Shown: positions 28,133 through 63,057 of the stretch, piece by piece
How the letters are laid out: each line of letters opens with the position of its first letter
How positions within the stretch are numbered: position 1 is the first letter of the stretch
Assembly (NCBI RefSeq): GCF_039555335.1
Contig: NC_092628.1
Coordinates: 29,669,409 to 29,733,408 of the forward strand
Origin: Amphiura filiformis
Taxonomy: Eukaryota; Echinodermata; Ophiuroidea; Amphilepidida; Amphiuridae
Length of the DNA: 64,000 nucleotides
Direction of reading: 5' to 3'
Translations under genes and position numbers: made by a program
The notes under the pieces: generated by a model
The model's database searches: none
Told to the model about the DNA's origin: nothing
The model's input: the letters and a program-made list of their open reading frames with translations, nothing else

Positions 28133-29225
28133 ATGAAATTCGAAACCTATCCAAGAGCCAACTGCAGCAGCAGGTTTAACATTGATGCCAAACAGATTAT
28201 TGAAGGTAAGTACACTTTATCATTATAAAGATAGATGGCCCCATACGTGACCCTTGAGGTACACCACATTCAAAGAGTGATTACATTACAAGAAATAAAA
28301 TCAATTCGAAACCTATCCAAGACCCAACTGCAGCTGCAGTTTTAACATCGACGCCAAACAAATTCTTCAGGGTACGTACCATTTATCAATCAGGATTAGA
28401 TGGCCCCATAACTGACCGTGAGGTATAATCCAAAAAGTGATTACATTAAGAGAGATTAGGTGAATTCGTAACCCATCCAAGAATCAACTGCAGCAGCAGA
28501 TTTTATATTGACGCTAGATTCTTGAAGGTAAGCACACTTTGTCATTATAAAGATAGGTGGTCCATAACTGACCGTTGAGGTACACTACAATACAAAGAGT
28601 GATTGCATTACGAGAAATGAGGTAAATTCGAAACCTATCCAAGAACCAGCTGCTGCAGCAGGTTTAATATCGACTCCAAAATGATCCTCGAAGGTAAGTA
28701 CACTCTGTCATTATAAACATAGATGGCTCAATAACTGACCATTGAGGTACATCACAGTCCAAAAGATTGTTTGCATTATGAGAGATGAGGTAAATTCGAA
28801 ACCTATCCAACTGCAACTGCCAGCTGCAGCAGCAAGTTAACATCGACGCCAAAAAAATTATCGAGGGTACGTAAATTCTGTCATTTATATAAAGATAGAT
28901 GGTCCCATAAATGACCCTTGAGGTACACCACAACCCAAAGAAGGATTGCATTATGAGAGATGAGGCAAATTCGAAACCTATTCAGGTGCCAACTGCAGCA
29001 GCAGGTTTAACATTGACGCAAACAGATTACTGCGGGTAAGTACACTTTGTCATCATAAAGATAAGTGGTCCCATAACTGACCGTTGTGGTACGCCATAAT
29101 CCAAAGAGTATTATTGCATTACGAGAGATGAAATAAATTCGAAACCTATCTAAGAGTCAACTGCAGCAGCAGATTGAATATTGACCCTAAGCAGATTCCT
29201 GAAGATAAGTACACTTTGTCGAATT
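28133..29225 (+). repeat. Tandem array of seven exon-1 units (~165 bp each)
   Basis: Copies of the coding exon with its splice donor start at 28133 (core ttcgaaacc at 28139), 28305, 28465, 28627, 28795, 28970 and 29138. Donors are intact in copies 1-6 (GTAAGT, GTACGT, GTAAGC, GTAAGT, GTACGT, GTAAGT) and changed to ATAAGT in copy 7. The ATG in frame with the exon exists only in copy 1; later copies read ...gaggtaaattcg or similar. Copies 3, 5 and 6 have small indels in the exon; copies 2, 4 and 7 keep the frame. The linker (cactttgtcattataaagatag, ttgaggtac, ccaaagagtgattgcatta) is equally conserved, so whole units were duplicated. No AG acceptor with a pyrimidine tract precedes the later copies. 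Confidence 0.9.
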
Positions 29226-31297
29226 TGACTCATTTTGAAAATCCGAAAAATCAGTTTTAATTGCAATGTTCCCATAATGTTCGCATCATTGAATAACACC
29301 AGAACGGCAGATTGCGGTGCTGAGAAAACTGATATTGACAAATTGCATGAATTGCAAGAGATGTGAGACATCTTAGTCAACTGTGCCGGAAGATGGTGGC
29401 ATACTCGTATGTTTGAGTCTATTAGAAGTCATCATAATCACATAATGTGTGCCATGCGATATACACTGCAGGAGAAACTCACAGGATACTGGAGACTCTA
29501 CCAGGACTAAAAGAGTGTCTCTAAAGAGGGATTGTTTTTTGTTTATTTTATACCGAGAATAATATTATTCTTTAAAAGAGGTTGGAACCCATATGTGACG
29601 TGTCATGTCAAAAAGAGACACTTTTGGGCAGGATCGTAAAAAATCTGCCTAGGGGCGATTTTTTCACAATTTAGGTTTGTTGCGAATTTGTGATGTTATT
29701 AATGTTTAAAATATTGTCTGATAGTTTCAGACCAGAATATATACCTAGCATCTTGTATTTTTTGAGACATTTTTATTACATTAAGGTAATTCCTACTCTC
29801 GACATTGTCAATAATATTTTTAAAGGCCGATATCTCAATTTCCAATTTTATAATACCATAACTTACGAACTCAATATCTTCGCTTAGGAATATCCGATTT
29901 CATTGGAGAAAACGGCTTTGTGGAGCAAAATATCTCTATATTTAAGATATGTAAAAACCTCAAAATTGATAACCTGCCCAAAAGTGTATCCTTTTGACAT
30001 GACACGTCACATATTTTGATTTATCTATGTTTGAGAAAATTACGAAGTTTTTCTTTTATCAATTCACTTTTTTTTTTTTCAGACATGCTTTCACATCCGT
30101 TCATGTTAACGATGTTAATATTGTGTACTCTCATGGTCATAGCAACGGTAGCATTATGTGTAGAATCTGTTTATTATGTTTACAAGAATGTACCCCGAAG
30201 TGCAATGGCTAACCATCGGATGACTACTTGCTGGATGCTGGCTCTTTATCCGGTACGTTACTCCGCAACAGAAATAGTAACAGAGTATTCATTGGCAATT
30301 TAGCATGTGAGGCATTAAATTTAACGATAAACTTATCTTTTTATTCTTCATCTGGTTTTATCTTCATCTTCATTTCCATCTCAGTTCATCATATTCTTCT
30401 TCTTCGACTTTCTAAAGGTTCCTCTCATGTTAATTCTCATCATTGTTAACTTCATCTTCATTATCATCATTCGCTTTTTCTTCTACCTACTCTTTCCTTC
30501 TTCTTCTTTTTTTTTTTTTGTATCTTCTTCTCATCTCCTATTGTTTTCTCCATAGATGTTTGCCTTTGTACATTTACCTGGAGTGTGGATTCCTTCTGCT
30601 GCTTCCTTTTGTACAACCTGTGCAACTATGTAAGTCTTGATCAGAAATTATAATTTGTTATGCATCCAGTGCCATGTAATTACCTCTGAGCGTGATATTG
30701 CTTCGGTAACTTTGCTGTGTTTATAGAAATTATTCAAATAGCTCACCAATGTTTTTGGTGTTTGAAAGTTATCGAAGAGAATCGGTCAAACTTGGTGGTG
30801 AATTTGAATACGTTCTTACCTTAATATTTAAAGGCTTTGGTTCAAATGGTTTAGACTCGAGTACTACAAGACCTTTGAGGACCTTCTTTGGGACACTCTC
30901 TTACATCATTTTCCAGGGCCTGACATTTCAGAACATTACGTTGCACCTCTCCTTAAAAAATATGCCACATTCTCTCGTTAACTTAGAGCACCCACAATGG
31001 GATTTATTTTGCACTGACCAGCTGCATATCAACTGTTTGGAGCACAAATATGTTAATTATATGGGCTGCTTGGAGCAGAAAAAAGCCGCCTTTGTTTAAC
31101 GTTACCTTTAGCAGTTCACCTTTTTTCACCAAGCAGCCCATGCAGTTTACATTTTTGTGCTCTAAGAAGTCGATCTGTAGACAGGGGCAGTTTACAAATA
31201 TGAAAAAAAATTACTTCAAAGTGACCTTCATCTTCAGGAGCCAATAATTAGTAATCTAATGTTACCATCTTCTGACTCCAAATTTCGACGTGCATAT

Positions 31298-31385
<88 letters not shown>

Positions 31386-34300
31386 TTAATTAATTAATTA
31401 ATTAATTAATTAATTAATTAATAATTATTTATTTATTTATTTATTCCAGAATCTGCTCTCTCACATTATATAAATTCCTGGTGATACTTGTTGATTATTA
31501 CGGAGGACATCGAAAAATGATGCTGAAGGTAAATAAACATTGTCATTCATAATGTTTTGACATGAAAACAAAATAGTCCCGAATTATCTAGCAAAAGTTG
31601 TCTGAAAGCTTCCTTGCGCATTAGAAATTTCGCCCGCCTGAATTGTCAAAGAACAATTTTTGCATTTATTTTACTTCTTACCATTGAAAACATGAAACAA
31701 GGCTGCAGACGACAAATGGAATTTCCGAACAAAATAAGGTTAAATGTGCCCAATTCGTATGTCCCAACAGCATTTAAAGCCATATTATAACATTTCTGTA
31801 AAAATAGATTAGTATTTATTTTCCATAAAATGTTAATAGCTTTTCCTTTCAGATATGTCCCCTTTTAATTTTGAGCCGAACAAGTGAGAGGTAAAGCATA
31901 GAAAATTGGAATTTACTATTAGCGCCCATGCATGTTACTCCCGCGGTTGTTATACGGTACGATCATCGGGGTGTGTTTGTATGTGTATCCCGCACGCCGT
32001 GTACGTACTGTGTTCGACTAATATTTCCATCGTAATAATAAAACGCCGGTTCTATCGGGTTTTTTCTTCAAAATCTCGGATTTTGACAAAACTACAGCAC
32101 CTAAAGTCTTGATTTTTGCAGAGTATCTTTATTGACTAAAGTACATTACAATCGTGTAAAAATCAGAATTTAAATTTTTTTGAGGGCGTTCTCCTCAGCA
32201 AATGTTATAATATGGCTTTAATATAAAGGACATAAGATTCAAATCATACATTTTATATCTGTGGTTGAGTTTATAAAAATGGGTTCCCATCAGTCATAAA
32301 TCAATTATATCCAAAATGGAAAAAAAATATATTAAGAAAAATCCGCATGCCGGATTAGATTTTCATTATCTGAATCAATATTATTGAAAAATAACACTTT
32401 GGTGTTTTGCAAAAGTTCATTCTACAAATCATATACTTTGAAAACTTGCTTAATTTATTGTTGTTAATGAGTTGTGTACGTTTTACAAAAGTGAGGTTGT
32501 TTCAGCCCTCTTTATAACATAGCTCAAGAACCACAGGACCTACAAAAGTATATATGTGATATTTGAATTCTTCTACACGCTCGCTATGAGTTGAGCAATG
32601 CAAATTTTGCTAAAGCTCACTACCATTCGCAAGATGCTGAGAACTGCATTTTTTTGCTGCTTCGACCAACAATACACCGTATACCCTTAATGGGCCCGGT
32701 AGAAGTAAATGTTACAACAATATCACGTACTTGTGACGTTTGATTTATTTTTGTAATTTGTAATGTAATACTATTACTAATAGGATGCAAAAGAAATGTG
32801 GCTCTCCTTATATAGATATGAGATTATTAATTAAAATGATTTTAGTGCCCATGAAGTACAAGTCGCTTTCCTCATTTTGTTTGCATTATCGTATAATAAT
32901 GTGTGTGGTTTATTTAAATTTTTGATTTATTATTTTCCCTTGCAGATCGCAACGACTACCATCAAGTTTCCCATGACTGTGACTCCGTTATTAGCTTGTT
33001 GTTGTTGCTTCAAAAATAATTTGTTAAAACCAAGAAAGCTTACCAAGTAAGTTGTGCTTGGAAAAACAAACAGACAAACAAGCAAGCGCACACAAATATA
33101 CAAGTCATATAAACAGAAAACGAAGCCTACCAATGTAATCACTTTCTTCGACTACTACATGTTCTATACAAATTTGTAACGCACCTTTTCAATTCTCTCG
33201 ATTCACAATACGATGCGCCGCCAGCGGTTGCTCTTGCCAGTCCAATTGACCCACAGGGTCTTCATCGCGCCGTTGCAACGTTGTAACCACCATTGGATTT
33301 TCACGGAATAATGTTGAAAACTGCTCCACGAAGGATTCCGTATGATCAATAGATATCAATTGTAAATTGCTGTTTTAGTTTGCATTCTTGTGTAACATCA
33401 TTGACATTAAAACACACAATGATTATGTCCCGTTGTTCCTGTGTTGTATTCGTATTACGCGATCTTTGGTTGTTGACATTTTCCCATGATGCACTGCGTA
33501 TTTTGGCCTCTCCCCAGCAACCGCTGGAGGCGCATCTTAATGTGAATCCACCGAATTGATTAAGGTCGGCTCATATGGTATTATAATGTGATTTTCGAGT
33601 TATTTAGGCGTCGTAACATTCCACTAATATATAATAATAATTTTTTTGTCTAACAGGAAAAGCTTGTTGATACTGAAAATAGTTGTTCTTCAAGTTGCCT
33701 TTATTCGGCCTATCATCAACTTTATAATTGCAATTTTTACACTTGGCAACATAGAAAGATGGGTAAGTGAGTATTTGTGTCTCTGTTTAAAATACATCAA
33801 GTAGATATTCACAAAGAGCTACCAAAGTATCTGTATACTTTTTCATCATATAAGGCCGGGTGTAAACATGTATTGTAAAAACCATGCACCAATCCAGGGG
33901 CAACGATATCGCGTCAGGCCCAAGGGCCTTATAGAAGCTTGAGAGAATAAAGGATACGGTTTTATTTTTCATTCTCCACCGGTGGCGTAGTTAGGATTTT
34001 TGTGTAACGGGGTAAGGTCCCAAAAACCAACATTACCCAAGAACCGTACCGAGAAATGTTCTCACGCAGGATGTTTTTCGGCCAAACACCGGGACCTGTA
34101 TTGACATGCACTGTGCACAAAGGTATCTTTCAACTTAAAACAAAAAGGATTTTGTTTTATGACACTAAAAGTAAATTACCAAAAAGGGATCGATAGAGAA
34201 TTTTGTTCTGAGCATTTTGATATACTTCATTCGGCACGATGCGACTTTCAACAAAAAGAGCATTTCTAAAATTTTACATAGACTTTCCTTCGAAACACGC

Positions 34301-37035
34301 GGATTATGAACGCATCACAGTGAACTTATAATCTGTCACGATGTAATGAGACAGTTACAAAAGACGACGGGAATCTCCTTGAAGGGGGAAATATCCAAAA
34401 GTATACCACCATGTTGTTATAAATCTCATGACTTGATCGTGTTATTTCTTCTTTCTTGCAAGGACTCCCCTATAACGGGTATGACAATGGTAATGGTTGT
34501 ATCCACCCTGTCTGCGATGACGGCACTCAATATGCTATATACCGGCTCACCTCAGGAACTCAACAAGTATAACGTCAGACAAAAATTTTACCTCATCAAA
34601 ATGGGCATGATTATCGGCAATCTGCAAATGGCAATATTTCGTGTATTGTCAAATTTTTGGTTGTTTGATTGCTTTCTTCGTTTACCATTTGAAACTCGTG
34701 CGGCATGTAAGTTAAATTGCTTTTCCGCTGGCGCAGTCAGTTACGTCAGAACACATTTCACTTGACGCAATGTTGAACAATGATGGCGCTATTTATCTTA
34801 AATCTTGTTTGCATCTTTACAAGTGGTAGACACTTGTAAAATGATATTAGAACATCAGAAAAAAGACTATAAAATGGGAAGGACATTTTCAAAAAACTTT
34901 TTATCATGAAATGTTAGGAATAACTCATATTAATTGGCTAATTTAAATTTAAAATATATGTAAATAGCGCCCTCAATTTTCACACAAATGTACAGTATTT
35001 ATAATAAAAATTACAAAAAAGCGGGAAAAGATGAATGATTTGATATAGACACGAAAATCTATGTTGCAGATAGCTACAAAATATATGTGAATATCAGTGG
35101 GATAGATGTTGGTATTGTCTAGGTCAAGATTGAATATTATATAATGTTTTTTTAGAAAAAGTAATAAATGATCACATCAAACAACCGTGGGCGTTTAAAG
35201 TTAAAGATTAGGTGCGACGGTGCGAAAAGCCACCCCGCCGCGTCACATTGACGTCACTGACTGCGCTATATAGACACGAAAATCTATGTTGCAGATAGCT
35301 ACAAAATATATGTGAATATCAGTGGGATAGATGTTGGTATTGTCTAGGTCAAGAATTGAATATTATATAATGTTTTTTAGAAAAAGTAATAAATGATCAC
35401 ATCAAACAACCGTGGGCGTTTAAAGTTAAAGATTAGGTGCGACGGTGCGAAAAGCCACCTCGCCGCGTCACAATGACGTCACTGACTGCGCTATGGAGAA
35501 AAGCAGTATAGATTCTCTCCTCAGTTTGTCGCTGAAGGAATCATTTTGCTTTCATGATATTAATTAAATGCACTGACTAACTTGCTTGTCAAATACACAA
35601 TCATCTAACACCCCAGACCCACCCTACTTACGCACAAACAATAAAATACTTTGACTTACTTCTGAAAGGCCGGTGTGGCCTTTGGATTCTTCCGAGTGAT
35701 CCTCCGCTATTCTAGTATGGTTTGGGCCTGCTGTTCAGCACCCTGTAGCGGCATCTCTACGTTGTATTGTGTTGTGCTCGTTCTTTCTATTTGTTAGGTG
35801 GGCGATCTGGTGATCTGTGAAATCGTTCTTTTAGGCTTGGAGATAGAGGGGTGCGGTGGTTGGCATACGGACAATATAGCCAAACAATATTATCTGTCTG
35901 TCAGAATTGACTTTTATATTCAGTCTGCTCATGATCTTCTTCTCATTCCTCACCTTGCCCATTATTCTAAAGACCGCCGACATGTCACTTTGAATACTCT
36001 GATTTGCGCAAAGTCCGAGATTAGGATCTTCATATGTGAATGGGGAGGATAAAGGCTCTTTATTTAGATTCTCATTTTGAGTGACCTTGAGATGTATTAG
36101 TTCGATCAGAGAGTTAACTTTTAGTCTCCTTTACGCCATCCCAGTGGGCACATTACTAACTAAAACAAAACCCTTTCACTTTGTCAATTGGTGTGTCGAA
36201 ACAGAACTGCGTTTATGATTTTAAGTAAAGGCTGTCTCATCAGAAGCCCACCTGTTTTCAAAGTTTCAGCAGCCACTTTGTACCAATCACATGATTCGTT
36301 GTTTGTTCATGGTATTGATCCACCTCAATCGTCTATTGTGAAAGGCATACTTGGGGTGTTAGTAACTGCAGCCTGCAGGGTCTGGAATGTTGTGGAGAAT
36401 ATTTTCATCTTGTGGGCCATGGGAACTGAGTGTTCAGGTTCTTGCTGAAATATTACTTCCAGTTCAGGGGTTGTTTGCATTTGGTCTCTTTTATCGTGGC
36501 CTTTTCACCTTCAAAGAGTTCATGACTGTTTTTTGTTGTTGTTGTTGTTGTTGTTTTTTATGGGCAATTACCATTTCTTTTACTTCTCTTTTAAGAAACC
36601 CCACTTCACTACACACAACTTTAACACACACAAACAAGCAAAATAAACAAAAACGTACTTCAGACAAACAAAGAACAGATGTTTGGAAACCAATTTAGGT
36701 GAAAATTTGATTTTGAAAATACTTGGCGTGGTGGAAAAAGCAAATATATTTGACATTGTGACCCCTTTCTCTTCCTACTTGATTTGTTTAGCCTAATAAT
36801 TTATATGGTTTTCTTTTTTCTTATAGTTTGGCAATGCATAACAATCATCTTTGAATCGTTCTTTCTATTTCTCCTGTCACGAAAATATTACCGACACAAG
36901 AGAGGCAATGTTGTCGGCAAGCCTCCGCCACCACCTGACATCCTTGGTGAGGAAGGCGAGATTGGTACTGCTATGAAGATGCGAAACTGGATACGAAGGC
37001 ACAGCGCCAATTTGCGACGGCATACATTTGCATGA
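28133..37035 (+). CDS. SLC51A: Gene B: organic solute transporter alpha-like protein, 351 aa, eight coding exons
   Basis: Exons are 28133-28205, 30083-30252, 30556-30629, 31450-31528, 32946-33046, 33657-33762, 34463-34706 and 36827-37035, with phases 1,0,2,0,2,0,1. Exon 1 starts at the ATG at 28133 and ends ...AKQIIE plus a split codon. Like C and D it has a sequon (N10) followed by a cysteine (C11) before a conserved x-A-x-x-(L/I)-(L/I) motif that also fits the human N-terminus. The second exon contains membrane segment 1 and the family-like VPRSAMANHR. Segments 2-3 follow, then a cytoplasmic loop with four consecutive cysteines (150-153); human SLC51A has a comparable cysteine run. Exon 7 codes for segments 5-6 and the loop with a Cys and LPF. 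The last exon codes for FWQC, segment 7, GNVVGKPPPPPDIL and a basic tail. The intron between exons 4 and 5 is absent in A and C. AATAAA at 37150 is a candidate poly(A) signal. Confidence 0.9.
29226..29590. other. Intron 1 of gene B between the array and a MITE
   Basis: Unique AT-rich sequence. No exon or paired repeat is seen. Confidence 0.5.
29591..30014. repeat. 424 bp MITE with atatgtgacgtgtcatg ends, copy 1
   Basis: A ~42 bp terminal inverted repeat begins atatgtgacgtgtcatgtca and includes gacacttttgggcagg. The interior matches the second copy at 61292-61727 closely. It lies 68 bp before exon 2 of gene B; the other copy is also in intron 1, of gene D. Confidence 0.85.
30635..31292. other. 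Intron 3 of gene B, one weak hairpin
   Basis: gagcacaaatatgtt...gggctgcttgg (31040-31075) pairs with ccaagcagcccatg...tttttgtgctc (31125-31163). A 116-codon open frame spans part of it but has no family resemblance and overlaps the hairpin, so I do not call a gene. Confidence 0.4.
31293..31445. repeat. (TTTA)n / (TTAA)n microsatellite next to a splice acceptor
   Basis: About 25 tattta units are followed by about ten taat units and four more ttta. It ends directly in ttattccag, the acceptor of exon 4 of gene B, so the microsatellite supplies the polypyrimidine-like tract. Confidence 0.95.
31778..32217. mobile_element. TTAA-flanked MITE in the extra intron of gene B
   Basis: Terminal inverted repeats AGCCATATTATAACATTT / AAATGTTATAATATGGCT are flanked by TTAA on both sides (31774-31777 and 32218-32221), the duplication used by piggyBac-type elements. 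A partial relative is at 18410-18690. Confidence 0.7.
32345..32686. repeat. Partial copy of the TTAA-flanked 62208-62838 element
   Basis: It shares cattctacaaatc.tatactttg, agagggctgaaac (inverted), ctcactaccattcgcaagatg and gcttcgaccaacaatac with the complete copy, and ends accc followed by TTAA. Its left terminus is missing. It is the second transposon inside the extra intron of gene B. Confidence 0.7.
33190..33559. repeat. 370 bp inverted-repeat MITE
   Basis: caattctctcgattcac...gatgcgccgccagcggttgct is matched by the inverted agcaaccgctggaggcgcatc...gtgaatccaccgaattg. Located in intron 5 of gene B. Confidence 0.7.
34707..35043. other. Start of intron 7 of gene B, nothing recognised
   Basis: AT-rich, with no exon or repeat partner seen. 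Confidence 0.5.
35044..35493. repeat. Two near-identical 225 bp tandem units
   Basis: Units 35044-35268 and 35269-35493 differ at only a few positions. Each ends in a GC-rich block with the palindrome TGACGTCA (35249-35256 and 35474-35481), a perfect cAMP-response-element core. Found in intron 7 of gene B. Confidence 0.9.
35494..36826. other. Rest of intron 7 of gene B
   Basis: A stretch of higher GC content (about 35670-36500) stands out from the surrounding intron and could be an old retroelement or captured sequence, but no reading frame or family motif is recognisable. A (GTT)n run lies at about 36530-36556. Confidence 0.4.
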
Positions 37036-38932: not shown

Positions 38933-41900
38933 ATGTTTGAGATTTTTGTAGATCGTGGCTCCTTCGATAGAAGATGTCGACCGTTGGCAAATTCCACACC
39001 ACAAACGGCAGGAGAAGTTTTAGATGGTAAGGTTCTTTTTCATTGATTAAAATACAAATATTTTCTTATCAATTTATGGTAGATTTAAATATCGCTTTAA
39101 TGAAAGATTCAACTGGATTAGTGTTTAAATTTCAATACAATATATTGGTATGCATTCATGTCATATTTCGCATTTTTATAACATAAATCGTGCCATGAGT
39201 AAATAAGAAAAATAAATTGAAAGAAAAAAATCTTTGCAAGTATAATATCAATTTATTTCTGACGATTGCAAAGTTTCTTAGGGATCAAATCAAAACTCGA
39301 CCGGTTCACCGCCGGATCCGGGTGGAGCCGGTTTCTATTGTTCTTAACAATTAAACGCGGTCCCCCCGGGCAACCGGCGGTCGAGTTTTGATTTGATCCC
39401 TTAACATGCATACATGTATACCGGTATATCATATGGATGCGTTGCTTTATGACGTTTTATGTATATTATACGTTTTTGAAAACTTACTCAAAATATTCTA
39501 ACATAATGTTAATTGTTGACGAAATATTTGGCTAAAAATAGTTGCAAAAAATATGTTACAATAACATTTTGGCGATATTTTAAAAATGTTGTTGTAGTTT
39601 GTTGTCACACAAAACGTTTTCAAAACGTTTTTATGACCTTTAATATGACACGAATTTTGATTTTTAAAACGTTATACCAAAACCAAGACCCAAAATATAA
39701 CCCATTTGAAACGTACCAATTACAATAACGACATGATTGTTTTCGCTGGGGTGGGGGGAGGGGCAAGGGCACAATGAGATACGGGGCCGACAATATCTAA
39801 CATTTGACATTTTCCCCAAATAGTGGGATTTATTTTGGTTCTGACTTGAGGGGTCTTTTTGGTGGTGGTGGTGGGGGGGGGCACAGTGAACATCACTGCA
39901 AGATTGTCTTTACATACCGTGTTATTATTATTGTATTTGCTAATTTCTCTTGAACATGTTGAACAGGGTGTTTCAATTTAAGTCGGTCCGAACAATTGAT
40001 GAGTTCAGATGCCAAAACCGACTACAGTTTTATTCGCAAATATAAAAGTTATACAGGGTGTCCCAGAAAAAATTACCTGGCGAATAAATTTGGACGTAAG
40101 TCGAGAAATAGACATCAGAATCCAAATATCTAAAAATCAGCGTGTAGCCCATCTTATTCTGCATCTTATACGCTAATTTTAGTGGAATCGGTTGACTGAT
40201 TGCGAAGAAATGAGCGATTACATAACGTATGCGTCAATTCACTTCATTCCAAGTTTGAAAGAAAGATCATTCAACACAATGCGCACTAGTGGTTAACTGT
40301 CAATCGACTTCATATTTTGTTCGGTGAAATCCTTTTCGTTCAAACAATCTGTTTCTTGCAAAACATCTAATTAGGTTTTGTTCAAATTTAAAAACCTGCA
40401 TGATATTAAAAATGAAAGCTTGCATGTAAGATGATGCTCGGTACTTGTAAATATCTTTTTTAGTTAATGTTGATATAAATGTTACATAAAGAATTATTGC
40501 ACAGAGAATTATTTCAGCTGGCTTAAAAAGATTTTCACACACATTAATGTTGTTGGAATATTTCCAAGAAATTGCAATGCAAAGTTTAAATCATTTAAAA
40601 CTTCAACATTAATGTTGCATGGTATCAAAAATCACACATAAATCTTTAAGCACTTGACCACTGTCAGTCTTGGTTCAAATGTTCTTTGGAAAGTTACAAT
40701 ATAATATATTTGCACAACCTAAAGAATTAAAGTGGGAAAGCTTCCAATTGCAGAAATCATACTGTTATTCATCTTCAATTGAAAGCATGAATAACATAAC
40801 ACCGTCGGATTATAAAATAGATAATGTGGACTAAATTTAATGAGATACACAAACTTTAGGAAGCGGTGAGCGAGTATGAAAAAAGCGCCTGTTGATCAAA
40901 CTTGGAATGAACTGCATTGATGCACACATTATATAATCGTTAATTTCTTCGCAACCAGACAACCGAATCAAATCAAATTTTTGTATGTGATGCACAATAA
41001 AATAGGCTATGTGGTACATTTTAAATTTTCTTATTCTGATGTCTATTTCTCGACTTACGTTCAATTCTATTCACTCGGTAATTTTTTCTGGGACACCCTG
41101 TAGATATTGACATTTATCGGCGTTTGAATCCGAACTCTTCAAGTTAAAAAGATAGGCCTAATGCTTTAAGCTACCGTATCCTTGTCTTTTTTTCTTTTTC
41201 TTCTCTTCTCTCTTCCATTTTGTCTGTCATTCGTTTCCTTCTTCTTATCATTTTCTTCATTTCTTTTTCTTTCTCGTTTAATCTTAGTATTTTTTCTTGC
41301 GTATTTGCTATAATTTCCCTGTGTTTACTCCTGTGTTTATTTCTGTATTGATTCAGTTCCCTTATTGTTTGTATTTTCGTCTTTGTTTATTTCATCTTCG
41401 CTTTTCTTGTTATTGTAGACATGTTTGAGCATCCTACCATGATAGTAATATTAGCGACGACAACACTATTTACCATAGTAACTCTAGCCTTGCTTATTGA
41501 ATCTGTCCACCATGTTGCAAAGCATGTGCCTCGTTCTGGGGTAGCCAATCACAGAATTAATACAGTGTGGATGTTGGCTTTATATCCGGTAAGATGTTTT
41601 TTTATAACTTTCTTACATCTAATTTCTTTAGTTTTGCTTATCTCGCAAATATATAAACCTGAGATGTCAAGGATTCTCGAGTACTAATATACTATAGGAT
41701 AAGCCACTCGTTTGCGCAAATGAAGTCAGTCATTCAGCCAATGCACGATCATGCATGTGATGGCATTGCTGTAGGGGTGTACGTGTAGGAGTGTATTTTC
41801 TGTGGAAGAGATGATGCATGTTTACGTCATCGTTTCAACAAAAATTAAATGGCGAAAAAACGGCGAACATTTGGTCGAATCTTTCCATTACTATCATATC

Positions 41901-44900
41901 GTGAAATACCAAATATCTGAGGAGTTAGCTCAGTATGCTAGGAAAATATTCTCTTCGATGACCCCATGACGAGACTGGCTAAATAAGCTGTATTTTTGCT
42001 GGAAAGGGTCCGAATAATTGGCAGTCGATGGGCGCCATTTTGGAAAAATTTGGTGTACCAAACTCCCCAGCAACTGTCAATCAAACTACGGATAAGTCTG
42101 CTTCACTATTGAAGTAGTACGCACAACGTTGTCGTGCACATGTATGCAAATTTTAGGCTATTAAAAAAGCGTTACTATGGCGTTACTAGGTGTACCAAAC
42201 TCCTTAGGAACTGTCAGTCAAACTGCCGTAAAGTGACTTCACTTTTTATACAGGGATTGAATACGAGTGTCACGGCCCTGGAGATGTATACATTGTCATT
42301 TGACTTCACGCCGATGCGCACACCGTTTTATCGAACATTGTTACTGCGCATTTCAAAGCCGTGAAGTTCGCAGTGACGATGTGCGCATCGGCATGACGAC
42401 ATCTCATGTCTACCCCAAGGGCTTATGGGCAGCGGCGCACACCGACACCGCCTGGCTAATAATTATTTGGTGCAGAAGGGACACTAAAATGAATACACGG
42501 GATCGATACACGTGAATTGCTATGCACGATTTTGATATCAGACGAAAATCTTCTGATACCGGGTTAGAAAATGATGAATATCTCCCGTCATGATTTTTTT
42601 CTCAAGAAACCAGATTTGGTCTCATAAACTTGGAAATACGTGTTGAACAGATATGATAGTCGCTAGAATGCGCTTTGAAAATTGGCCGTGCGCTTTGAAC
42701 TCAAAATTTGACCATTTTATATTGCGTTGGTCCTCTTATGGGGTTATTCCTTATGGACTACAGCGTGCAGCGTGTAGTACAGCTGCACTCACTGTAGGCA
42801 GTATAAAAGTCGATGACCATTGACCTCAATGGGGTATACAAGCTTAATCACGCACAACCAAGATCGATTACCCGGCTATTGTGAGTAGCCTTAGTTATGT
42901 CCCTCGACTAATTATTAGTTTAAAGAGCTTTAAAGGTTTGAACCAAATGGCTAATCGTGGCTGTGGATTTAACCTACCATGGCGATTCCTGCCATGAAGA
43001 TATAGGGTCGAAGACACTGTGCGGCGCGCCCTGACTTTTCCGGGGGAGAGCAGGCGGTGATGGAAGCGATATCGCCAATTTTGAGGTCGCCATTGGATTA
43101 ACACATAATCATGAAATCTTCACAAACAATTCTAAATTTGTTATGTGGTGTCAAAACAAAATTATCTTACTCTAAAACCGTTGGGGTACGACAATGTACC
43201 ACACTGTAAGTAGGCCCTATGTTAATTTTCCATTTGTAATTGCTAACCGTTTATTTTGAATGGGGCTGTCAGCCCTGTATCTTCGCCAGCCTCGTACGTC
43301 ACGTGTTGCGCTTCCTATGCTGCCTGGGGGGGGCATTGAGGGGAAAAGTGAATTTCAGGGGGAAATCAACTAATTTTACGCAAAATTACCGCAAAAAGGT
43401 GAAATTTTCGCAATTTTGGCCGGGTTTTTACTAGGGGGGGGGGGTAACAGGGGCAAGAGTTATGGAGAATGTGGACATCTTACAAATACTATTGGGTAGT
43501 CAGTCTCGCTTGGTACTATAGAATAAATAGATTTTTGTAATAGTGGTACCAGAAAAAACCGACCGATTTATACTAAATTGACAAAGGGTTTGACCAATAT
43601 AAACTGAGCTTAAAAAGAAACTTATAATTTTTCACAAGGTCATATCTTCAAATCCTGTCCATCAAAATGAACCAAAATTACGTTTACTTCAATACTCTAC
43701 TCTTAACAAATGTCAGTAACCAAGCAGTTATCCAACTGACAAAACAGCAAAATGCACTGACATGGAACAGCTTCCTGGACCACATTCACAGCCCAATAAT
43801 TGGCACCCACTACAGGAAATCTGTGAGAATGATTACAAGATCCTTGCACATTATAATTCCCAAAGAGTAAGTGGAATAGTGTGGAACAGTGAAAAAAGTG
43901 CATGAAAAGCAGAAAGCAGCGCCGTTTTATCATCTGTGCAAGGATCTTGTGCATGTGCATTCTCACAGATTTGTTGTGCTGGGTGCATAGGCGCAGATCC
44001 CGGGGGATGGGGGATTTACCCCCCAATATTTTGCCAGGGGGGTGGTCCATACAATCATCCCCCCAAATGTTGACACCTGAATATGGGTTTCTGACCAAAT
44101 TAACCTCATATTTGCCCATTTCAGCACCAAAAGTGCATATTTTCGCGCGCTTCGCGCGCATTTATTCCACTTGTGCAGCAAATTTCATCAATTTAGCTTC
44201 AAAATAGCAAACAATTTTACACGCTTCGCGCGCATCTGTACCAGAAACTTATTTTGTCGCCAAAAGGTGCTGGATTCACTATGCTTTAAGATTTTTTTCC
44301 AACCCCATCCCCCCAATGTCAAAAAGAAATCTACGCCACTGGGCCTGGGTGCCAAATGTTGGGCTGTGAAAGAGGTCCAGGAAGCTGTCCCATGTCAGTG
44401 CATTTTGCTGTTGTGTCAGTTGGACAACTGATTGGTTACTGACATGTGTTTTGAGTAGAGTGTTGAAGTAATCCTGTGTGTAATTTTGGTTCATTTTGAT
44501 GGACAGTTTCTTTTTGAGCTCAGTTTATATTTTGGACATAATATTTCAATACAGGTATTTTCAGCACTGCATTTACCTGGAGTATGGATTCCATGGTCAT
44601 CGTCATTCTGTACCACCATAGCAACTATGTAAGTAGGCCTATATAATTATTAAATGCACTGATCACTAAAAGTATTGGGACATCTAGAAAATCATCCCAG
44701 ATACCAAAATTTTATTGAAATATATTTCACTGTACTTGATAAATATAAGTCCTTTTCATTAATAATTTATGTTTCTAGCCCTTATTTTCTTTCCAGAAAT
44801 AGAAGAAAATTATGCATCCATCTCAAATTCATATAAAATCGCCATTGGTAAAATCTAATGAAATAATATAATCAAAATATGTCAAGATCAACGTGCCTTA

Positions 44901-45827
44901 ATGGATTTTGACTTTGCTTGTGTTACCTAGGTAACGAAATATTGTAGATAATGCAATCCTATCTTTATTTGTATTGTTATATCAAAACGAACATTTTAAT
45001 ACCACTTTTGATATTTTTGACCTCATAGAGTCACAAAAAATTTGACCTTTGATCTTTTGGGAAATAATTCGAGAACAATTGCATCATAGATAGGTCAAAC
45101 TATACAGTTTCTGAATCCTTATTGACTAGAGAAATACATTGGTTGATGTGGTTATTAAAACAATTTGAAATGTGAAATTTGACCCTGTATAAAGTTTGAT
45201 TACCCTTTTCTCGCCAAAGGCTACTCCGGTTCAATTGCTATCACGTATGTCAACTACCACAAGCTACCGTAAAAACTCGATAGTTTGCATATGTGCTTAC
45301 TATCGAGCACTGTTGAAAACATGAAATTGTACCAAAGTCCGGCGCTTTACCAACTGAGCTAATGGGATTGAGGCACAAATTTGCAGGTTTACTTGTTCGT
45401 ATATAACTATGTGTATCGATGATTTGCTCAAAACCCTTTACACTTCATGTTTGCATGTTCTAAAGGCGCTCGATAGTAAGCACATATGCTAACTATCGAG
45501 TTTTTACGGTATGGTACCAGTGCAGTTTTGACCCCACCACCTTTGAACGGGTATTGGCGCTATACCTATTCGTCTCATTTTATTATTGTTATTTATTCTT
45601 TTTCAGTGTCTACTCTGTATCTCTGTACAAATTCCTGGTATTGGTAGTTGATTATTACGGAGGACATCGAAAGATGTTACTCAAACTTAAAACAACGGAA
45701 ATTCAGTTCCCGGTGACTGCAGCCCCGTTAACTGCATGCTGCTGTTGCTTCAAGAAAAATTGCATGAGACCTCGGAGACTTACTAAGTAAGTTGGGAGAA
45801 GAATGTTTTATTGTTTGACTATTCGAT

Positions 45828-45909
<82 letters not shown>

Positions 45910-47612
45910 ACATCAACATCATCATCAACATAATCATCATCCGGGTGGGCCAACGTTGGTCTAACGCTGCTGCACCATGCAAGGTAGGGCCAACATTGAA
46001 CCAACATTGGTCGTTGATCCATCCAATAGATTTTCCCTGCCAGGTTGTACCGATACGGTATTGGACCAAGGTTGGAACAACTTTTAGGCCAAAGTTGGAC
46101 AAATGTTGGTCCAAATGAGACAAAAAAGGGGCATAATGCATACCGCGATTTCATTCAAGTCTTATATCTATTTTACCTCGAACGCATATTTAGCCCAACG
46201 TTGGCTTACCGACGCATGGAGTTAAAAATGGCCCGATGTCGGTTAACCGATAATTTGCCCGGTATCGACAGAACAAAAGTGAGCCAACGTTGGATTGCCG
46301 ATGCCTACTGCAGCACTTTCTGACGTTGAACCAATGTTTGTGTCCAGTATCGGCGGTTGAGGTGGGGGTGGGGGTGGGGGTGGGTGGGTCGGGGATGATT
46401 TCGTTCTGGTTTTACTGGAACTCTTTTTTGCGCGCGCGAAAAATGCGTTTTGCTGTTTGATGGGCTCAAGATGGTGTCCCGGGGATGGTGTTTTTCGTGT
46501 TAAAAAGGAAGAAGCATGCACAGGGCAATTATTGCTTAATTTTGATTTTTCAGGCCAGATGTTGGTTAACCGATAATCGGCCCAATGTTGGCTTACCTAC
46601 GCCCACCACTAGATTTCATCTCTCCCGCTCCCCAAGCAATTATTATTATTGTTGTTATCGATCAATTAATCGATTTTTTGTTTGTTTATCATCATGATCA
46701 TTATGCTATTATTGCCGGGTACTATCATCATGGTTGTCGTTTTTTGTTGATGTTAATGTAGATATTTTGTTGTTGCTATCACAGGAAGAGTAAAATGGTG
46801 TTGAATATATTGGTTCTTCAAGTAGCTTTCATTCGGCCAGGAGTCAATTTCGTGATCGCTCTCTTCAACTTGGGAAATATTGCCAGATGGGTATGTATGA
46901 CTATTTGAATGACCCATTGACATGACCCTAGTAATTTTTGTAATTCTATTAAACCCTTCGAGCATATCTTTTGACTAATGGCGTCCGAAAGCTCTTGTGC
47001 GATTTTGGCCCGATATGGTCTTGCACCGTCCTGCACCATATGGTACAGGAGCATGTTTGACTTATAAATATTTTCAATCTACTTATAAATATTTTCAATT
47101 TAAGTACATGTTCCAGCAGTAAGTTTGAATCAGAAACTGGAGCATGTTTGTCAAACATGCTCCTGGAGCATTCTAAGTCAAACATGCTCCTGGAGCATGT
47201 ACGCTCGTACTTAAATTGAAAATGATCATGGTCCTGGACCATATTATCGGGCCAAAATCGCACAAAAACCGACCGCAAACCCCGGCGAAAACGCACTTCT
47301 AGCGATTCATATTGACCCTGTTCCCTCAGCTTAAAATCACTGAATCCTAATTTAGCATTGAGATAATTTACTTTTTTATGATCAGAATATAATCTAGATA
47401 CACAAGAATATTATTTCGCCATTATTTTACAAAGACCTAACAATTTTGAACATGTTGAAGGCTTTGGTTAAGAATATTATTCAGTATCTCTTTTACATGA
47501 TTGTATACAGTATTTAATTTGCCTTCGAAGGTAAACTTCCTTCATGGAAGTAACTCACTTACTTTTTGTCTATAACTGGTGAAATAAAACAAAAACCTGT
47601 TTGCTTAAATGA

Positions 47613-47643
<31 letters not shown>

Positions 47644-48711
47644 ATTAATTAATTCATTTATTGATTGATTGTTACAGGATTCACCCATCACAGGAATGAC
47701 TATTGTTATGGTATCTTCAACCCTCATCGCAATGACGGCACTCAACTGTTTGTACACAGGTTCGGCCGAAACGTTGACCAAATACCACCTCCGCGCTAAG
47801 TTTTACTTGATTAAGGCTGGGTTGATGTTTGGTAATCTTCAGCTTGCGGTGTTCCGTATTTTAGCTAACTACTGGGTCCTTCCATGTATCATAGTGTTGC
47901 CATTCGAACTTCGAGCTGGATGTAAGTACAAGTTAATCATCCCCACGTGATGTGATAGTTCACATTTAGCAGGTTCGCCGTCGGACAGGTTAAGAACTGC
48001 CATGTTTTGGTCAGGAGAAGCTCTGACTTCTTCAGGTCAAAGTACCTAAGTATGATGGCTCTGAAAAGAGCCGTTCTCTTAAGACTGCCCCTTGTGAACA
48101 GTGAACAAGCAGACCTAGCCTATCTGTTAAAGTTTTTGGTGGCTCTGAAAAGAGCCGTTCACTGAAGATTGCCCCGTATCTACAGAGAACAAGCAGGTCT
48201 CGCCTAGGCCTATCTGCTAATGTAAAACGGTTTGGTGGCTCTGAAAAGAGCCGTTCACAGAAGACTGCCCCTTGTGAACAGTGAACAAGCAGACCTAGCC
48301 TATCTGTTAATGTTTTAAGTTTTTGGTGGCTCTGAAAAGAGCCGTTCACTGAAGATTGCCCGTATCAACAGAGAACAAGCAGGTCTCGCCTAGGCCTATC
48401 TGCTAATGTAAAACGGTTTGGTGGCTCTGAAACGAGCCGTTTACAGAAGACTGCCCCTTGTCAACTGAGAATAAGCAGACCTCGCCTATCTGCTGATTTA
48501 ATTATTTATTTATTTATTGACAGTCTGGCAGTGCATCTGCATCATCTACGAGTCTTTCTTCCTCTTCCTCATATCAAGAAAATACTACCGTTTCGCCGAT
48601 GGCAATGTGGTGGGCAAACCAGCTCCCCTACCCGATATTCTCGACGACACAGAGAGAGGAGCAGCATTCAAACTCCGGAATATGGCGCGCCGTATCAGCT
48701 CAGCATTTTAA
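38933..48711 (+). CDS. SLC51A: Gene C: organic solute transporter alpha-like protein, 351 aa, seven coding exons
   Basis: Exons are 38933-39026, 41419-41588, 44555-44628, 45607-45786, 46785-46890, 47678-47921 and 48524-48711, with phases 1,0,2,2,0,1. The ATG at 38933 opens an N-terminus with C15, sequon N20, then P-x-T-A-x-E-V-L-D, close to the P-T-A-x-x-L-L of the human protein. Exon 2 has membrane segment 1 and HVPRSGVANHR. The loop after segment 3 has four cysteines (157-160) plus one five residues later. FIRPGVNF and DSPITGM follow in exons 5 and 6. The C-terminal exon reads FWQC, then a YYR-x3-DGNVVG stretch and a basic end. Total length and most exon lengths equal those of gene B; exon 4 (180 nt) equals the sum of B's two pieces. 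The role should be basolateral efflux/uptake of steroid or bile-salt-like solutes with an OST-beta partner, inferred from the family. Confidence 0.92.
39281..39410. mobile_element. 130 bp palindromic MITE with TTA flanks, copy 2
   Basis: gggatcaaatcaaaactcgacc and its inverted copy form nearly perfect ends, flanked by TTA at 39278-39280 and 39411-39413. It is related to 21724-21842. Found in intron 1 of gene C. Confidence 0.75.
39450..39752. repeat. Degenerate cccagcaaacac-type MITE, copy 2
   Basis: It shares ttttaaaaatgttgttgta, aaaacgtttt and aaaaccaa blocks in the same order as 27254-27543 and ends ttttcgctgggg. Its left end is too decayed to place. Confidence 0.5.
40054..41100. mobile_element. 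mariner-like non-autonomous element with cagggtgtccc ends
   Basis: CAGGGTGTCCCAGAAAAAAT and its inverted copy end at 40054 and 41100 and are flanked by TA (40052-40053 and 41101-41102). Homology extends about 90 bp inward (cgacttacgt, ctatttctcgac). No transposase frame is left. Weaker pairing of agtcgg..cgaac..atgagttcagat (about 39980) with gaatccgaactcttcaag (about 41125) suggests an older element outside it. Confidence 0.65.
41589..43592. other. First two-thirds of intron 2 of gene C
   Basis: There are local inverted matches around cgatgcgcac (42312 and 42385) and a G-run at about 43434. I found no exon, RNA gene or well-bounded element. Confidence 0.4.
43593..44534. repeat. Foldback element, one arm split by a hAT-like insertion
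   Basis: The left arm (43593 to about 43855) and right arm (about 43935-43985 plus 44344-44534) are inverted copies. Both arms encode, on opposite strands, similar peptides beginning MNQNY with QQNALTW and HSP, about 50 codons long. The right edge lies 20 bp before exon 3 of gene C. Confidence 0.7.
43986..44341. mobile_element. hAT-like element inserted in a foldback arm
   Basis: Ends CATAGGCGCAGATC and (inverted) CAGTGGCGTAGATT match 13834-14553 in reverse orientation. Flanking gctgggtg (43978-43985) and cctgggtg (44344-44351) are probably the target duplication, with two extra bases at the right end. It contains the paired block cgcgcttcgcgcgcat twice. Confidence 0.65.
44635..45264. other. 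Intron 3 of gene C, no feature seen
   Basis: AT-rich. The start (cactgatcactaaaagta) resembles a transposon end but no matching partner was found. Confidence 0.4.
45265..45511. mobile_element. TA-ended MITE carrying a tRNA 5' half, copy 2
   Basis: taccgtaaaaactcgatag and its inverted copy are the ends. Between them the minus strand (45370-45330) has tagctcagttggtaaagc, then gccggactttggtac, the same truncated tRNA as in 26523-26794. It is 25 bp shorter than copy 1. Located in intron 3 of gene C. Confidence 0.8.
45831..45940. repeat. (ATC)n microsatellite
   Basis: About 30 atc triplets, interrupted near the end by caacat. Located in intron 4 of gene C. Confidence 0.95.
45945..46615. repeat. 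Cluster of the palindrome ccaacgttgg and relatives
   Basis: ccaacgttgg occurs at about 45950, 46196 and 46283, with many one-mismatch forms (ccaacattgg, ccaatgttgg, ccaaagttgg) and a linked block ggttaaccgataat. It looks like a degenerate short-unit satellite or an element built from it. Confidence 0.6.
46997..47264. repeat. 268 bp inverted-repeat MITE
   Basis: tgtgcgattttggcccgata with its inverted partner at the right end; inner pairs use gaccatatggt-like and ctggagcatgtttga blocks. Located in intron 5 of gene C. Confidence 0.7.
47611..47672. repeat. (TTGA)n repeat at the acceptor of exon 6 of gene C
   Basis: About 14 ttga/attg-type units run into gttacag, the splice acceptor. Confidence 0.9.
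48050..48445 (-). repeat. Five tandem copies of a histone 3' stem-loop-like sequence
   Basis: On the minus strand each unit contains ACGGCTCTTTTCAGAGCCAC or a close form: the canonical histone mRNA stem (GGCTCT/AGAGCC), four-base loop TTTC, and ACC after the stem. Stem-loops are at 48057-48072, 48141-48156, 48237-48252, 48328-48343 and 48423-48438. The last has one change in the stem. Units alternate between two subtypes (linker caagcagacctagcc or caggtctcgcctagg), so the array probably grew as ~180 bp dimers. No histone coding sequence is adjacent. It lies in intron 6 of gene C, antisense to the gene. Confidence 0.8.
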
Positions 48712-49788
48712 ACAAAATCACGTGGGTGTCGTCTGGAGAGGAAATGTTAAACATTTACCACACATTTGTATAAAAATATGAAAAAAGTAAACTCATATTC
48801 ATTATGTCAGGTTTTGGAACCGAGCAATTTATTAGCTCATTTGCAAATTATACCAGTCGCAGTGATGTTAGTGTAGGCCTGTATACATTTCTCTCTATTA
48901 AAGGTGGGTGACCAGATATAGACAGCCACATCTCCCATTATTTTTCATCAAAATTGAGGTTTTGGTCAGACTAAAGCTCATATTTTTTTCTCATTACCCC
49001 AGTAAAATTTAACGCCCGAGGCTGTTTCGTTTAAATAGTAAGCACGTGAGTAGGCCTACGTGAAACAAAATACTATCCTATGGGCCATTGCTATATACGT
49101 TTTTGCTTCTTATGTCAAAACCGCTAGCAATTGCTCAATACAACTCAAAATTTGGAATCAGATTATTCGGCAAACAGAATACGAACACATCTGACCACCC
49201 ACCTTTAAGAGTGGTTTGCTTTATTTTCCACACAAGCAGTAGTTGGTTTTTGACCAATGAAGTGAATTGTACCTAAAAACAATTAATTTATCTCGATTAT
49301 TTCATTGTTACAATATATTTATACCATTACATTTTTTATCAACTAATCAGGTATAATGTCCGCACTGTATAGTCGTGCGGAAGACTATTTTCAAGCTCAT
49401 TCATCTGTAAAAAAAAATGTCCTTGAGCACCTGAGGCAAATAACAAAAAGCAAGCCTCCGAATATCTGTGTGAAAGTTATGGCGTGTAAACTGTCTCATT
49501 TGCATAACAAGGAACCACTTTCACAGCATATCAATTTAGTTGATCGCTGGTTTGTCATAGGCCTACAACATACGTTTATTTCACAACTTTTTCATAAAAT
49601 AAATTTATATCATTGATTCCGTCAATATGCATAAATTACCTTATTGTTCTCTTTTTGAAAAAAAAATGTATAATACTATATATTGTAAATAGATGAATGT
49701 ACATTTCTCATGTTCGTCATACATGTCATAAACAATGACAAGACGTGTTCTAAAATTCTAGTTTAAACGGCAAAAAGGCTGCATTAAA
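48712..49788. other. 3' flank of gene C
   Basis: No repeats are recognised. AATAAA at about 49601 could be a distal poly(A) signal, but nearer A-rich variants exist. No promoter or gene is seen. Confidence 0.4.
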
Positions 49789-59707: not shown

Positions 59708-62700
59708 ATGTCGGGCGTTGAGAACCAGAGTATGGTGCCAGAGTGCTATATGAATTTAAGGCCAACTGCGGGGGAACTTCTCAGTGGTAAGTACCATCAC
59801 GTTTTCATTAAATATTCACGGATTCTGTAACGGAGGTCCCAAAAACTATTAAGTACAGGTCTAACTTTAAACCTGGTCTAACTATATGGCGATTAGAACT
59901 ATATGGTAGGAACTTTTTAGTATATATTTACATACCATATTCTATATTATAGATCCTGTTAAGGGCAACTACATATTAATTAGATGGATGCACTTTAATT
60001 AATTTTTGGACTTTGCTAGGAATAAAGGCGGAAAATAAATAATTGAAGGGATACATCAGTGCACTATAACCTCCATAGTTAGACCAGGTCTAAGTTAGAC
60101 CTGGTCTAACTTAGACCTGGTCTAACTTGTTTTATGCATACGGACCATGGGCTAAATTAATATCAGGGTGTCATTTATTACTCCATGTGTATAATTTTTC
60201 TTAAGAGGGGAAAAATGTCTAAAACTTCCGTTTTTATACATTATGATCTGTGGAAATATAAATGTGATTATTGGTTTCCTTGGCTGGTTTCTCATTTCTT
60301 GAGACAAATGTATAACTATTAAGAAGGAAATTGCAGGTTTTTTTCCCGTAAAATGGCTAGACTATGCTATAGTCGAATTTTATTAAAAATATGTTATTAT
60401 TAGTCATGATGAACCCATTTCGTTGAACTCAAAATTATACTGATGTTTATTAAAATTAAAGTATTCAATAGTAAAATGGTCATAAGGAATTAAGAATATC
60501 AGATGATTAGTGACAATAAAAGTAATTGAATGCAACATTATCTTCCATAATTATAATGGCTCACTTTAATACTGAACAATTCTGATTTTGGAATCTACCA
60601 GTTTATTGATAGCGAACCCCGAAAATTCTTACTTGGGAAGCTAACAAAGAGAGGGAGTAGGGTGACTGAAAAGATCAGATGTGAAAATCTATCAATTGTG
60701 CACACATTAATTAAATCAGAGTTTTAAGCTTAAATACAATATCCAGAGTATGCACAATGGGCAAGTGGACTACGGGGTAGTCTATAAAATGGCTAGAATT
60801 GGAAAATGGCCCCTGTCAATGTTGAAAAATTAAATAAAAGCGTCCATGAATTTGAGGTCGTTATTTGGACATTAATAGAACATGGCACATATCAACATTT
60901 AAATGTTTTTAAACGTTTGCCTATAACACGTTTATAACGTTTATAAAAACATTTTTGTGTTTCCTTGGACATCATTCTATAATGCCCCAAACGTATTTCT
61001 TATTTCATACATTATGTTAAGGGAAAAATTTACGTGGTTAAAAGTTCCTTGGTTATAATTCTCTTTTAAGTTTGTGAATTGTCTCTTTCAAAAGGGAGCC
61101 ACAAACCACAATGTGTATACTGAATTCCAACATGTTATCTACAGCGGTATACTTCCGTATCTATCTATGCATTACGTAGGCAAACCATTATGTCAATATT
61201 TCCTGTTTTTATATAGGCCTAGTTGTAAGTAGGTTTATTGTGTAACCTTTTTACACACAACTTACACAGCCACACCGACAGTTCGACACACATATGTGAC
61301 GTGTCATGTCAAAAGGAGACACTTTTGGGCAGGATCGTAAATGGAGAAATAGCCAAAAATCTGCCCGAGGGTGATTTTTTCACAATTTGGGTTTGTTGCG
61401 AATTTGTGATGTTATTAATGTTTAAAATATTGTCGGATAGTTTCAGACCGGAATATAACTGGCATCTTGTATTTTTAGAGACATTTTTCAAGGTAATTCC
61501 TACTATCAACATTGTCAATAATATTTTTAATGGCCGATATCTCAATTTCCAATTTTATAATACCATAACTTACGAACTTAATATCTTCGCTTAGGAATGT
61601 CCGATTTCATTGGGGGAAAACGATGCTGTGGAGCAAAATATCTCTATACAGTATTTCAGATATGTAAAAACCTCAAAATGTATAACCTGCCCAAAAGTGT
61701 CTCCTTTTGACATGACACGTCACATATTTATTCACACATTCGCTTTCTATAATAATATTAATTAAAAGTCATAATTATTCAATAATATTGTCACCTGGAA
61801 ATGCGCGTTTTTATACTCAAAACATACACTAATGTTTTCCATTACGTTTAGTTACCTGGAGAGATTTGATCATGTCTCATCCCCTTTTTCAACCAAATCG
61901 ACGGTAATAACTCTTGTAGTAAGGGATTTAACCACAAATTTCCTCAGGCAAAACTCACTTCTTGGGAACCAAATACCACACACGGTCATTTTTATGTAAC
62001 TCATTGACCCATTTGTGTTATATATACTGCCTCTAGCTATAATGACATCCTTGTGATCTGGTCAACTCATTGACAGATACGAACATCAGGAGGGAATTCA
62101 ATTTTTTATCATTCTCTCCAGGTAGTGAAACGTAATGTTTGTCAACAAATCAATGCAGTATTTTTTCATACAAATTCTTACGTCATTTGCGACAATTACT
62201 GCTTTAAGGGTAGACGAGGTATTGTTGGTCGAAGCAACCTAAAAATGGATTTTCACTATCTAGATCAATATATTATTAAAAATTAACACCTTGATGGTTT
62301 GCAAAAGTTCATTCTACAAATCGTATACTTTGCAAACTTGTTAATTATTGTTGTTTATGTTATATGCCCTTATAACATAACTCGTTTTACACCTAAAAAT
62401 ATATTGTTAAGCCCTTGAGCAATTTAAACATAACTCAAGAACCAGCAGCACCTTTAAAATAATTAATAACCTGAAGGTTATGAATTATTTTAAACTGTTG
62501 TGATTTGGTAGTTCGCAGCATCTTACGAATGGTAGTGAGCTTTGGCAAAAACTGCATTGCTCAATTATAGCGAGCGTGTAGAAGAATTAAAATATCACAG
62601 CTATACTTTTATAGGGGCTGCGGTTCTTGAGTTACGTTGTAAAGAGGGCTGAAACAACAACACTTTTTTAAAACGTACACAACTCATTAACAACAATAAA

Positions 62701-63057
62701 TTAAGCAATTTTGCAAAGTATACGATTTGAAGAATGAAATTTTGCAAAACATCAAGGTGCTAATTTTCAATAATATATTGATCTAGGTAATGAAAATCGA
62801 TTTTTAGGTTGCTTCGACCAACAATACCTCGTCTACCCTTAACCATAATGCTTTAACCATGTTCCTCACTTATCAATTTTCCAACAGATTTGCCCAATTA
62901 CCCAGTGACTCTCGCCGTGTATATTATAGTTACCATAGCAACATGTGTCCTGTTAGGACTTTTCTTTGAAACAGTATACTTTATTGGGAGAAAACTACCT
63001 CGTTCTTCGGTACCCAATCATCGAATGAATATCCTATGGATGGTGTCTATATATCCT
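59708..63057 (+). CDS. SLC51A: Gene D: organic solute transporter alpha-like protein, first two coding exons (partial)
   Basis: Exon 1 is 59708-59786 and exon 2 is 62888-63057, joined in phase 1; exon 2 ends in phase 0 with tatcct/gtaaga. Exon 1 has sequon N6, C13 and the N-terminal motif R-P-T-A-G-E-L-L-S, the closest of the four to the human P-T-A-A-Q-L-L. Exon 2 is 170 nt, as in B and C, with membrane segment 1 (about residues 33-55) and KLPRSSVPNHR. The remaining exons, expected from the neighbouring genes to be five or six, lie past the end of the window. No stop or frameshift is seen. The long first intron (3.1 kb) is full of MITEs. Confidence 0.85.
59850..60130. repeat. Element with ttagacctggtctaa palindromes at both ends
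   Basis: aggtctaactttaaacctggtctaac (about 59857) faces gttagaccaggtctaag and two further copies of tagacctggtctaac (60075-60130). The 15-mer is itself palindromic apart from its central base. Confidence 0.55.
60131..61291. other. Intron 1 of gene D, mostly unannotated
   Basis: About 60880-60972 is a fragment of the cccagcaaacac-type MITE (aaacgttt blocks). The rest is AT-rich without recognised features. Confidence 0.45.
61292..61727. repeat. 436 bp MITE with atatgtgacgtgtcatg ends, copy 2
   Basis: It matches 29591-30014 along its full length, with a few small indels. Both copies keep an open stretch covering fgttattaatgtttaaaat, but it reads as shared non-coding sequence. Confidence 0.85.
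61841..62136. repeat. 296 bp MITE with attacgttt..tacctggagaga ends
   Basis: attacgtttagttacctgga is matched by the inverted tccaggtagtgaaacgtaat. Located in intron 1 of gene D. Confidence 0.75.
62208..62838. mobile_element. 631 bp palindromic TTAA-flanked element, complete copy
   Basis: GGGTAGACGAGGTATTGTTG and its inverted copy are flanked by TTAA at 62204-62207 and 62839-62842. The arms pair for about 200 bp (gcaaaagttcattctacaaa etc.). It ends 49 bp before exon 2 of gene D. Partial copies lie at 32345-32686 and 56985-57317. Confidence 0.85.

Follow-up and report, generated by a model that had tools for sequence, protein, structure and literature searches.

Four tandem OST-alpha-like genes, here called A, B, C and D, were found on the + strand of the window, by which we mean the whole 64-kb stretch of DNA that was analysed. 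Their exon-2 matches end at 9583 in gene A and lie at 30083-30252 in B, 41419-41588 in C and 62888-63057 in D. Gene B extends over 28133-37035 and gene C over 38933-48712, both with intact frames, and gene D starts at 59708 and continues beyond the window end. Gene A, with more matches at about 18717, 20552 and 22037, is more diverged, and its exon 1 was found neither by similarity with exon 1 of B nor by two patterns. The G+C content of the window is 31-42% in 2-kb steps and its spliced genes are of the animal type, and an Rfam search of the whole window gave 0 families at the gathering threshold. Upstream of the OST-alpha cluster, at 472-1536, lies a long open frame that belongs to the Sulfotransfer_2 family (PF03567, E 1.8e-49). 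Near the end of gene C, at 48056-48492, a 186-bp unit with an internal 96-bp period is repeated 2.4 times and stops some 30 nt short of that gene's last exon. The palindrome TAGGCCTA has 20 occurrences in positions 1-64000 compared with 0.45 expected, and an enrichment of this kind is known from echinoderm and hemichordate DNA.

The eight exons of gene B make up an intact OST-alpha gene with a product of 351 aa, predicted from in-frame exon joins without an internal stop, and all seven of its introns are bounded by GT and AG. Exon 1 (28133..28205) begins with the initiator ATG, comprises 24 codons and one base, and joins exon 2 in frame through a phase-1 donor, AAG/GTAAGT (the slash marks the exon end). 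Exons 2-8 follow on the same + strand at 30083-30252, 30556-30629, 31450-31528, 32946-33046, 33657-33762, 34463-34706 and 36827-37035, the last including the stop. When compared with Pfam, the predicted protein matched PF03619 (Solute_trans_a) at E 4.8e-29 over residues 36-307 of 351, and with a score of 101.9 bits against a cutoff of 24.9 it passed the gathering score, the match covering most of the protein. It was also found to match OST-alpha chains in the PDB (E 2.8e-21, residues 30-312). Judged by its domain, gene B is a member of the OST-alpha family, for which a transport activity is predicted. Exon 1 itself appears credible by frame, donor and constraint, and in the mRNA it would be spliced to exon 2.

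The same exon opens a tandem array. By blastn self-match and alignment the array was placed at 28136..29220 of the + strand, with the form X(YX)6, in which X is an 86-nt segment made up of codons 2-24 of exon 1, the donor and 15 nt of the intron, and Y is a linker about 80 nt long, six linkers being set between seven X copies. This confirmed the proposal of the first-pass annotation that the first coding exon is present as a tandem array of seven copies. Its further description of seven units of about 165 bp, each an exon 1 copy with its linker, holds for six full units but not for the last, which is an 86-nt partial one. The copies start at 28136, 28302, 28462, 28624, 28792, 28967 and 29135 and are thus spaced by 166, 160, 162, 168, 175 and 168 bp (range 160-175). 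Pairwise identity of copies 1-7 is 0.646-0.855 and averages about 0.80 over the 15 pairs that copies 1-6 form. Since every self-match at E<=1e-3 falls within the array, and the longest off-diagonal one spans 943 columns at 78% with an E of 0.0, the array cannot be put down to chance. TRF did not report it at a minimum score of 50 nor at 30, and a standard tandem-repeat finder can therefore miss arrays this diverged. The array is a head-to-tail tandem repeat, as a minisatellite / VNTR would be, and, as a set of adjacent copies of a credible exon in one gene, it would also class as a tandem exon duplication.

Copy 1 has its initiator ATG at 28133-28135, immediately before the repeat and not part of it. 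Neither side of the array was found to be related to the linkers. In a local test against the 300 nt that precede exon 1, the linkers gave no sign of kinship (p 0.26-0.96 in 6/6), an end-anchored test gave no sign of derivation from the upstream side (the fraction of random windows scoring as high was 0.15-1.0), and no kinship with the right flank was detected, the lowest p of six being 0.078.

The copies differ in what they have kept. Copy 2 (28302..28461, + strand, as are all the copies) has an open frame without an ATG, the donor AGG/GTACGT and a linker without TATAAA. In copy 3 (28462..28623) the frame is broken by a 4-nt deletion and the donor is AAG/GTAAGC. Copy 4 (28624..28791) has an open frame with an internal in-frame ATG at 28681, as well as the donor AAG/GTAAGT, which is that of copy 1. 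Copy 5 (28792..28966) carries a 6-nt insertion, a 1-nt deletion and the donor AGG/GTACGT, copy 6 (28967..29134) carries a 1-nt deletion and the donor CGG/GTAAGT, and the partial copy 7 (29135..29220, 86 nt) retains the frame but has lost the donor, with AT in place of GT. Frameshifts are therefore present in 3/6 extra copies (3, 5 and 6), and copies 2 and 4 alone among the extra copies retain both frame and donor. The first-pass annotation was right that six copies keep a GT donor (6/7), and that the frame persists in copies 2, 4 and 7, for which the alignment contains no frame-breaking gap in the exon part. It was mistaken in giving an in-frame ATG to copy 1 alone, as the ATG at 28681 in copy 4 demonstrates.

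Mutually exclusive cassettes would each have to be in frame, and the frameshifts in copies 3, 5 and 6 do not agree with such an arrangement. As to acceptors, which the first-pass annotation saw before none of the other copies, the highest-ranking AG close to each of the 6 extra copies is preceded by 55-65% pyrimidines, compared with 50-85% at 14 gene acceptors (15 gene acceptors less one of gene A that was set one base off), so that the ranges overlap. The donor of copy 1 agrees with the consensus at 9/9 positions and is the first donor met in the array. Read-through past it gives seven codons and then a stop (...IIEGKYTLSL-stop), so that a first exon extended to any of donors 2-6 would cut short the protein begun at the normal ATG.

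Whether the exon or the array came first can be approached through the paralogues. Genes C and D each have a single-copy exon 1 on the + strand, that of C at 38933..39026, joining C exon 2 at 41419 in frame, and that of D at 59708..59786; both were found by reading the sequence, and each is a short coding exon that ends in a phase-1 donor, MFEIFVDRGSFDRRCRPLANSTPQTAGEVLD and MSGVENQSMVPECYMNLRPTAGELLS respectively. The gene C protein has 351 residues and aligns with that of B over its whole length, weakly in exon 1, and the cysteine-to-junction distance is 13 residues in D as in B. Exon 1 of C with 54 nt of its intron matched itself alone in the window at E<=1, and exon 1 of D gave, besides itself, one 28-nt match (E 0.026), which is located in the intron flank. 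In a similarity scan with exon 1 of B, the true exon of C came last of the 12 candidates listed and that of D was not among the candidates listed. A pattern written after these exons had been seen, C...[TSDA]A-x-[QEKR]-[LIVM]-[LIVMF] before a phase-1 GT, was scanned over the DNA preceding exon 2 in genes B, C and D and matched only exon 1 of B, C and D and three more array sites; for gene A the same pattern gave no match. An exact 20-nt pattern from the exon core had 0 matches in viral_contigs, which says little. Since C and D carry a single exon 1 with a phase-1 donor, exon 1 is most likely older than the array, which would have grown from the exon; the case is built on position, phase and a short motif and not on strong identity.

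The extent to which the copies are constrained was assessed by comparing exon and linker parts. The sample is small (70 exon columns and 6 extra copies) and the power of these tests is low, so that a copy in weak or recent use, copy 4 in particular, would escape notice. In copies 2-6 the exon columns have a pairwise difference of 142/677=0.210 and the linker columns one of 200/928=0.216, which a permutation test does not separate (p=0.89); adding copy 1 changes the values to 0.188 and 0.211 (p=0.54). An excess of change at third codon positions was not significant in copies 2-7 (p=0.26) nor in copies 1-7 (p=0.18). Second positions are numerically the least variable in copies 2-7 (0.159 vs 0.237 and 0.239). 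When each copy was scored against the majority base of the remaining copies, the exon of copy 1 had 2/69 changes and the exon parts of copies 2-7 together had 53/408 (p=0.013), while the linker of copy 1, at 12/90, is close to the 56/442 of the linkers of copies 2-6 (p=0.86). The exon-linker contrast inside copy 1 is a modest one (p=0.024, among six tests of this kind), and the tendency in copy 3 is the opposite (exon 9/65, linker 5/89, p=0.09). Taken together, constraint looks confined to the exon of copy 1, with its linker ordinary, and the exon parts of copies 2-6 appear to drift at about the linker rate, without detectable constraint on the extra copies. That a satellite grew from a coding exon, one of the two readings offered previously, is supported by the single-copy exon 1 of C and D, by the constraint on the exon of copy 1 and by the linker-like rate of copies 2-6.

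Transcription start in the linkers is the only productive use that we can see for the extra copies. Copies 2-6 would then be alternative first exons, with starts in the linkers below a TATA-like motif and with each copy using its own donor to join exon 2. Translation from the in-frame ATG of exon 2, or from 28681 in copy 4, would yield an OST-alpha without the N-terminal tail. If this were true, one OST-alpha gene would give a full-length form from copy 1 and tail-less forms from the linkers, and a promoter cluster would have grown from a coding exon and its intron, not from a promoter. Tandem initial exons with their own starts have a precedent in PMC9013439, GT is present in 5/6 extra copies, and copy 4 joins an open frame and an internal ATG to a donor identical to that of copy 1. 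Linkers 1, 3, 4 and 5 contain TATAAA, which puts the motif about 80 nt ahead of copies 2, 4, 5 and 6. However, these occurrences go back to one inherited motif (at its frequency in the window, 0.08 would be expected in 96 nt), 2/6 linkers lack it, and it spans the boundary between two blocks whose mean differences are 0.18 and 0.28, with four of the six bases in the latter, the most variable block of the linker. If a leader of 50 nt is assumed, no ATG precedes the in-frame one of exon 2 in copies 2 and 3, but copies 4-7 have other ATGs in such a leader, out of frame or soon stopped, and in copy 4 the in-frame ATG at 28681 is preceded by a two-codon ATG frame. Furthermore, the upstream side of exon 1 is absent from the repeat unit, the exon columns of copies 2-6 show no constraint and half of the extra copies are frameshifted. 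Alternative first exons are therefore considered improbable.

The extra donors might also act without being joined to exon 2, as decoys or as U1-binding sites which tune splicing or protect the intron 1 transcript. The GT kept in donors 2-6 and the identity of donor 4 to donor 1 would agree with such a role. Yet retention of GT fits neutral decay, since 4.6 of 6 are expected to keep it at the linker rate and the probability of 5 or more is 0.56, and over the 7-nt donor region of copies 2-7 4/42 bases are off the majority, near the linker rate of 56/442. We regard a role for the donors alone as quite improbable. With the upstream side of exon 1 outside the repeat, three of six extra copies frameshifted and GT retention at its neutral level, the earlier suggestion that the units act as alternative starts or decoy donors received no positive support.

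Repeated units in a first intron could carry repeated binding sites, and the array might on this account be a regulatory element of intron 1, an enhancer or a cluster of binding sites. Such a reading seems highly improbable, as linkers and exon parts are equally diverged and the variation in 10-column blocks, 0.09-0.31, leaves, by inspection, no clearly protected linker block. An assembly artefact, in favour of which no evidence was found, is extremely unlikely because the copies are 15-35% different and bear private indels.

The history of the array can be partly read from the copies. A tree of copies 1-6, from which the partial copy 7 was left out, is star-like, with internal branches making up 7.7% of the total length and bootstraps of 32, 40 and 53. 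A tree this close to a star suggests a single burst followed by independent decay. A MITE-like inverted-repeat element with 42-nt arms, 95% and 100% complementary, is present in intron 1 of B (29591-30014) and of D (61292-61727), the two being 87% identical. Since the array copies are about 80% alike and the element 87%, the array probably predates the spread of the inverted-repeat element, assuming equal neutral rates. The 64-kb window has three more tandem duplications, their units 110-225 bp long, and duplication of such a size therefore seems ordinary here. In intron 7 of gene B, at 35043-35494, a 225-bp unit occurs twice at 98%, a tandem duplication much younger than the exon array.

On the sequence evidence, the array is most likely an old tandem duplication of the first coding exon which has decayed neutrally in the gene's own intron 1. 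The duplicated segment, about 166 bp long, would have held the greater part of exon 1 with the beginning of intron 1, and its tandem duplication would be an ancient event, probably a single burst. Copy 1, being nearest to the 5' end and the sole neighbour of the initiator ATG, would have remained the working exon, and copies 2-7 would have become intron-1 sequence subject to neutral decay, not serving as transcription starts and being removed with intron 1. Because the initiator codon and the upstream side lie outside the unit, the extra copies are expected to have been useless from the outset. The array offers a small clean case of the fate of duplicated first exons, in which the sequence fits the uselessness of the extras.

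Tandem exon duplication is already well known, and the array is a further example of it. No report of this array was found among the titles and abstract openings listed from the openly licensed literature; PMC2812944 is concerned with tandem repeats altering human gene structure. Like the class of tandem exon duplications treated in PMC9013439, the array consists of adjacent homologous exon copies in one gene that arose by local duplication; unlike that class, the array involves a first coding exon, leaves the initiator ATG unduplicated and shows decay rather than alternative use. PMC9013439 also describes Drosophila hydra, in which there are nine initial exons, at least four of them able to act as transcription starts, and in which seven initial exon copies are flanked by DINE-1. 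Repeated duplication of an initial exon is common to both, with nine copies in hydra and seven in the array, whereas the linkers of the array are not a known element, its copies 2-6 are without detectable constraint and its extra copies would probably not act as starts. Human UGT1A, also treated in PMC9013439, has tandem homologous first exons before common exons, each with a promoter and encoding a functional domain. The array shares with it the tandem homologous first exons placed before common exons, but its unit excludes the ATG and the upstream side of exon 1. Like an intronic minisatellite, finally, the array is made of head-to-tail units of about 165 bp within an intron, and it differs from one in that its unit derives from a coding exon and its copies are strongly diverged.
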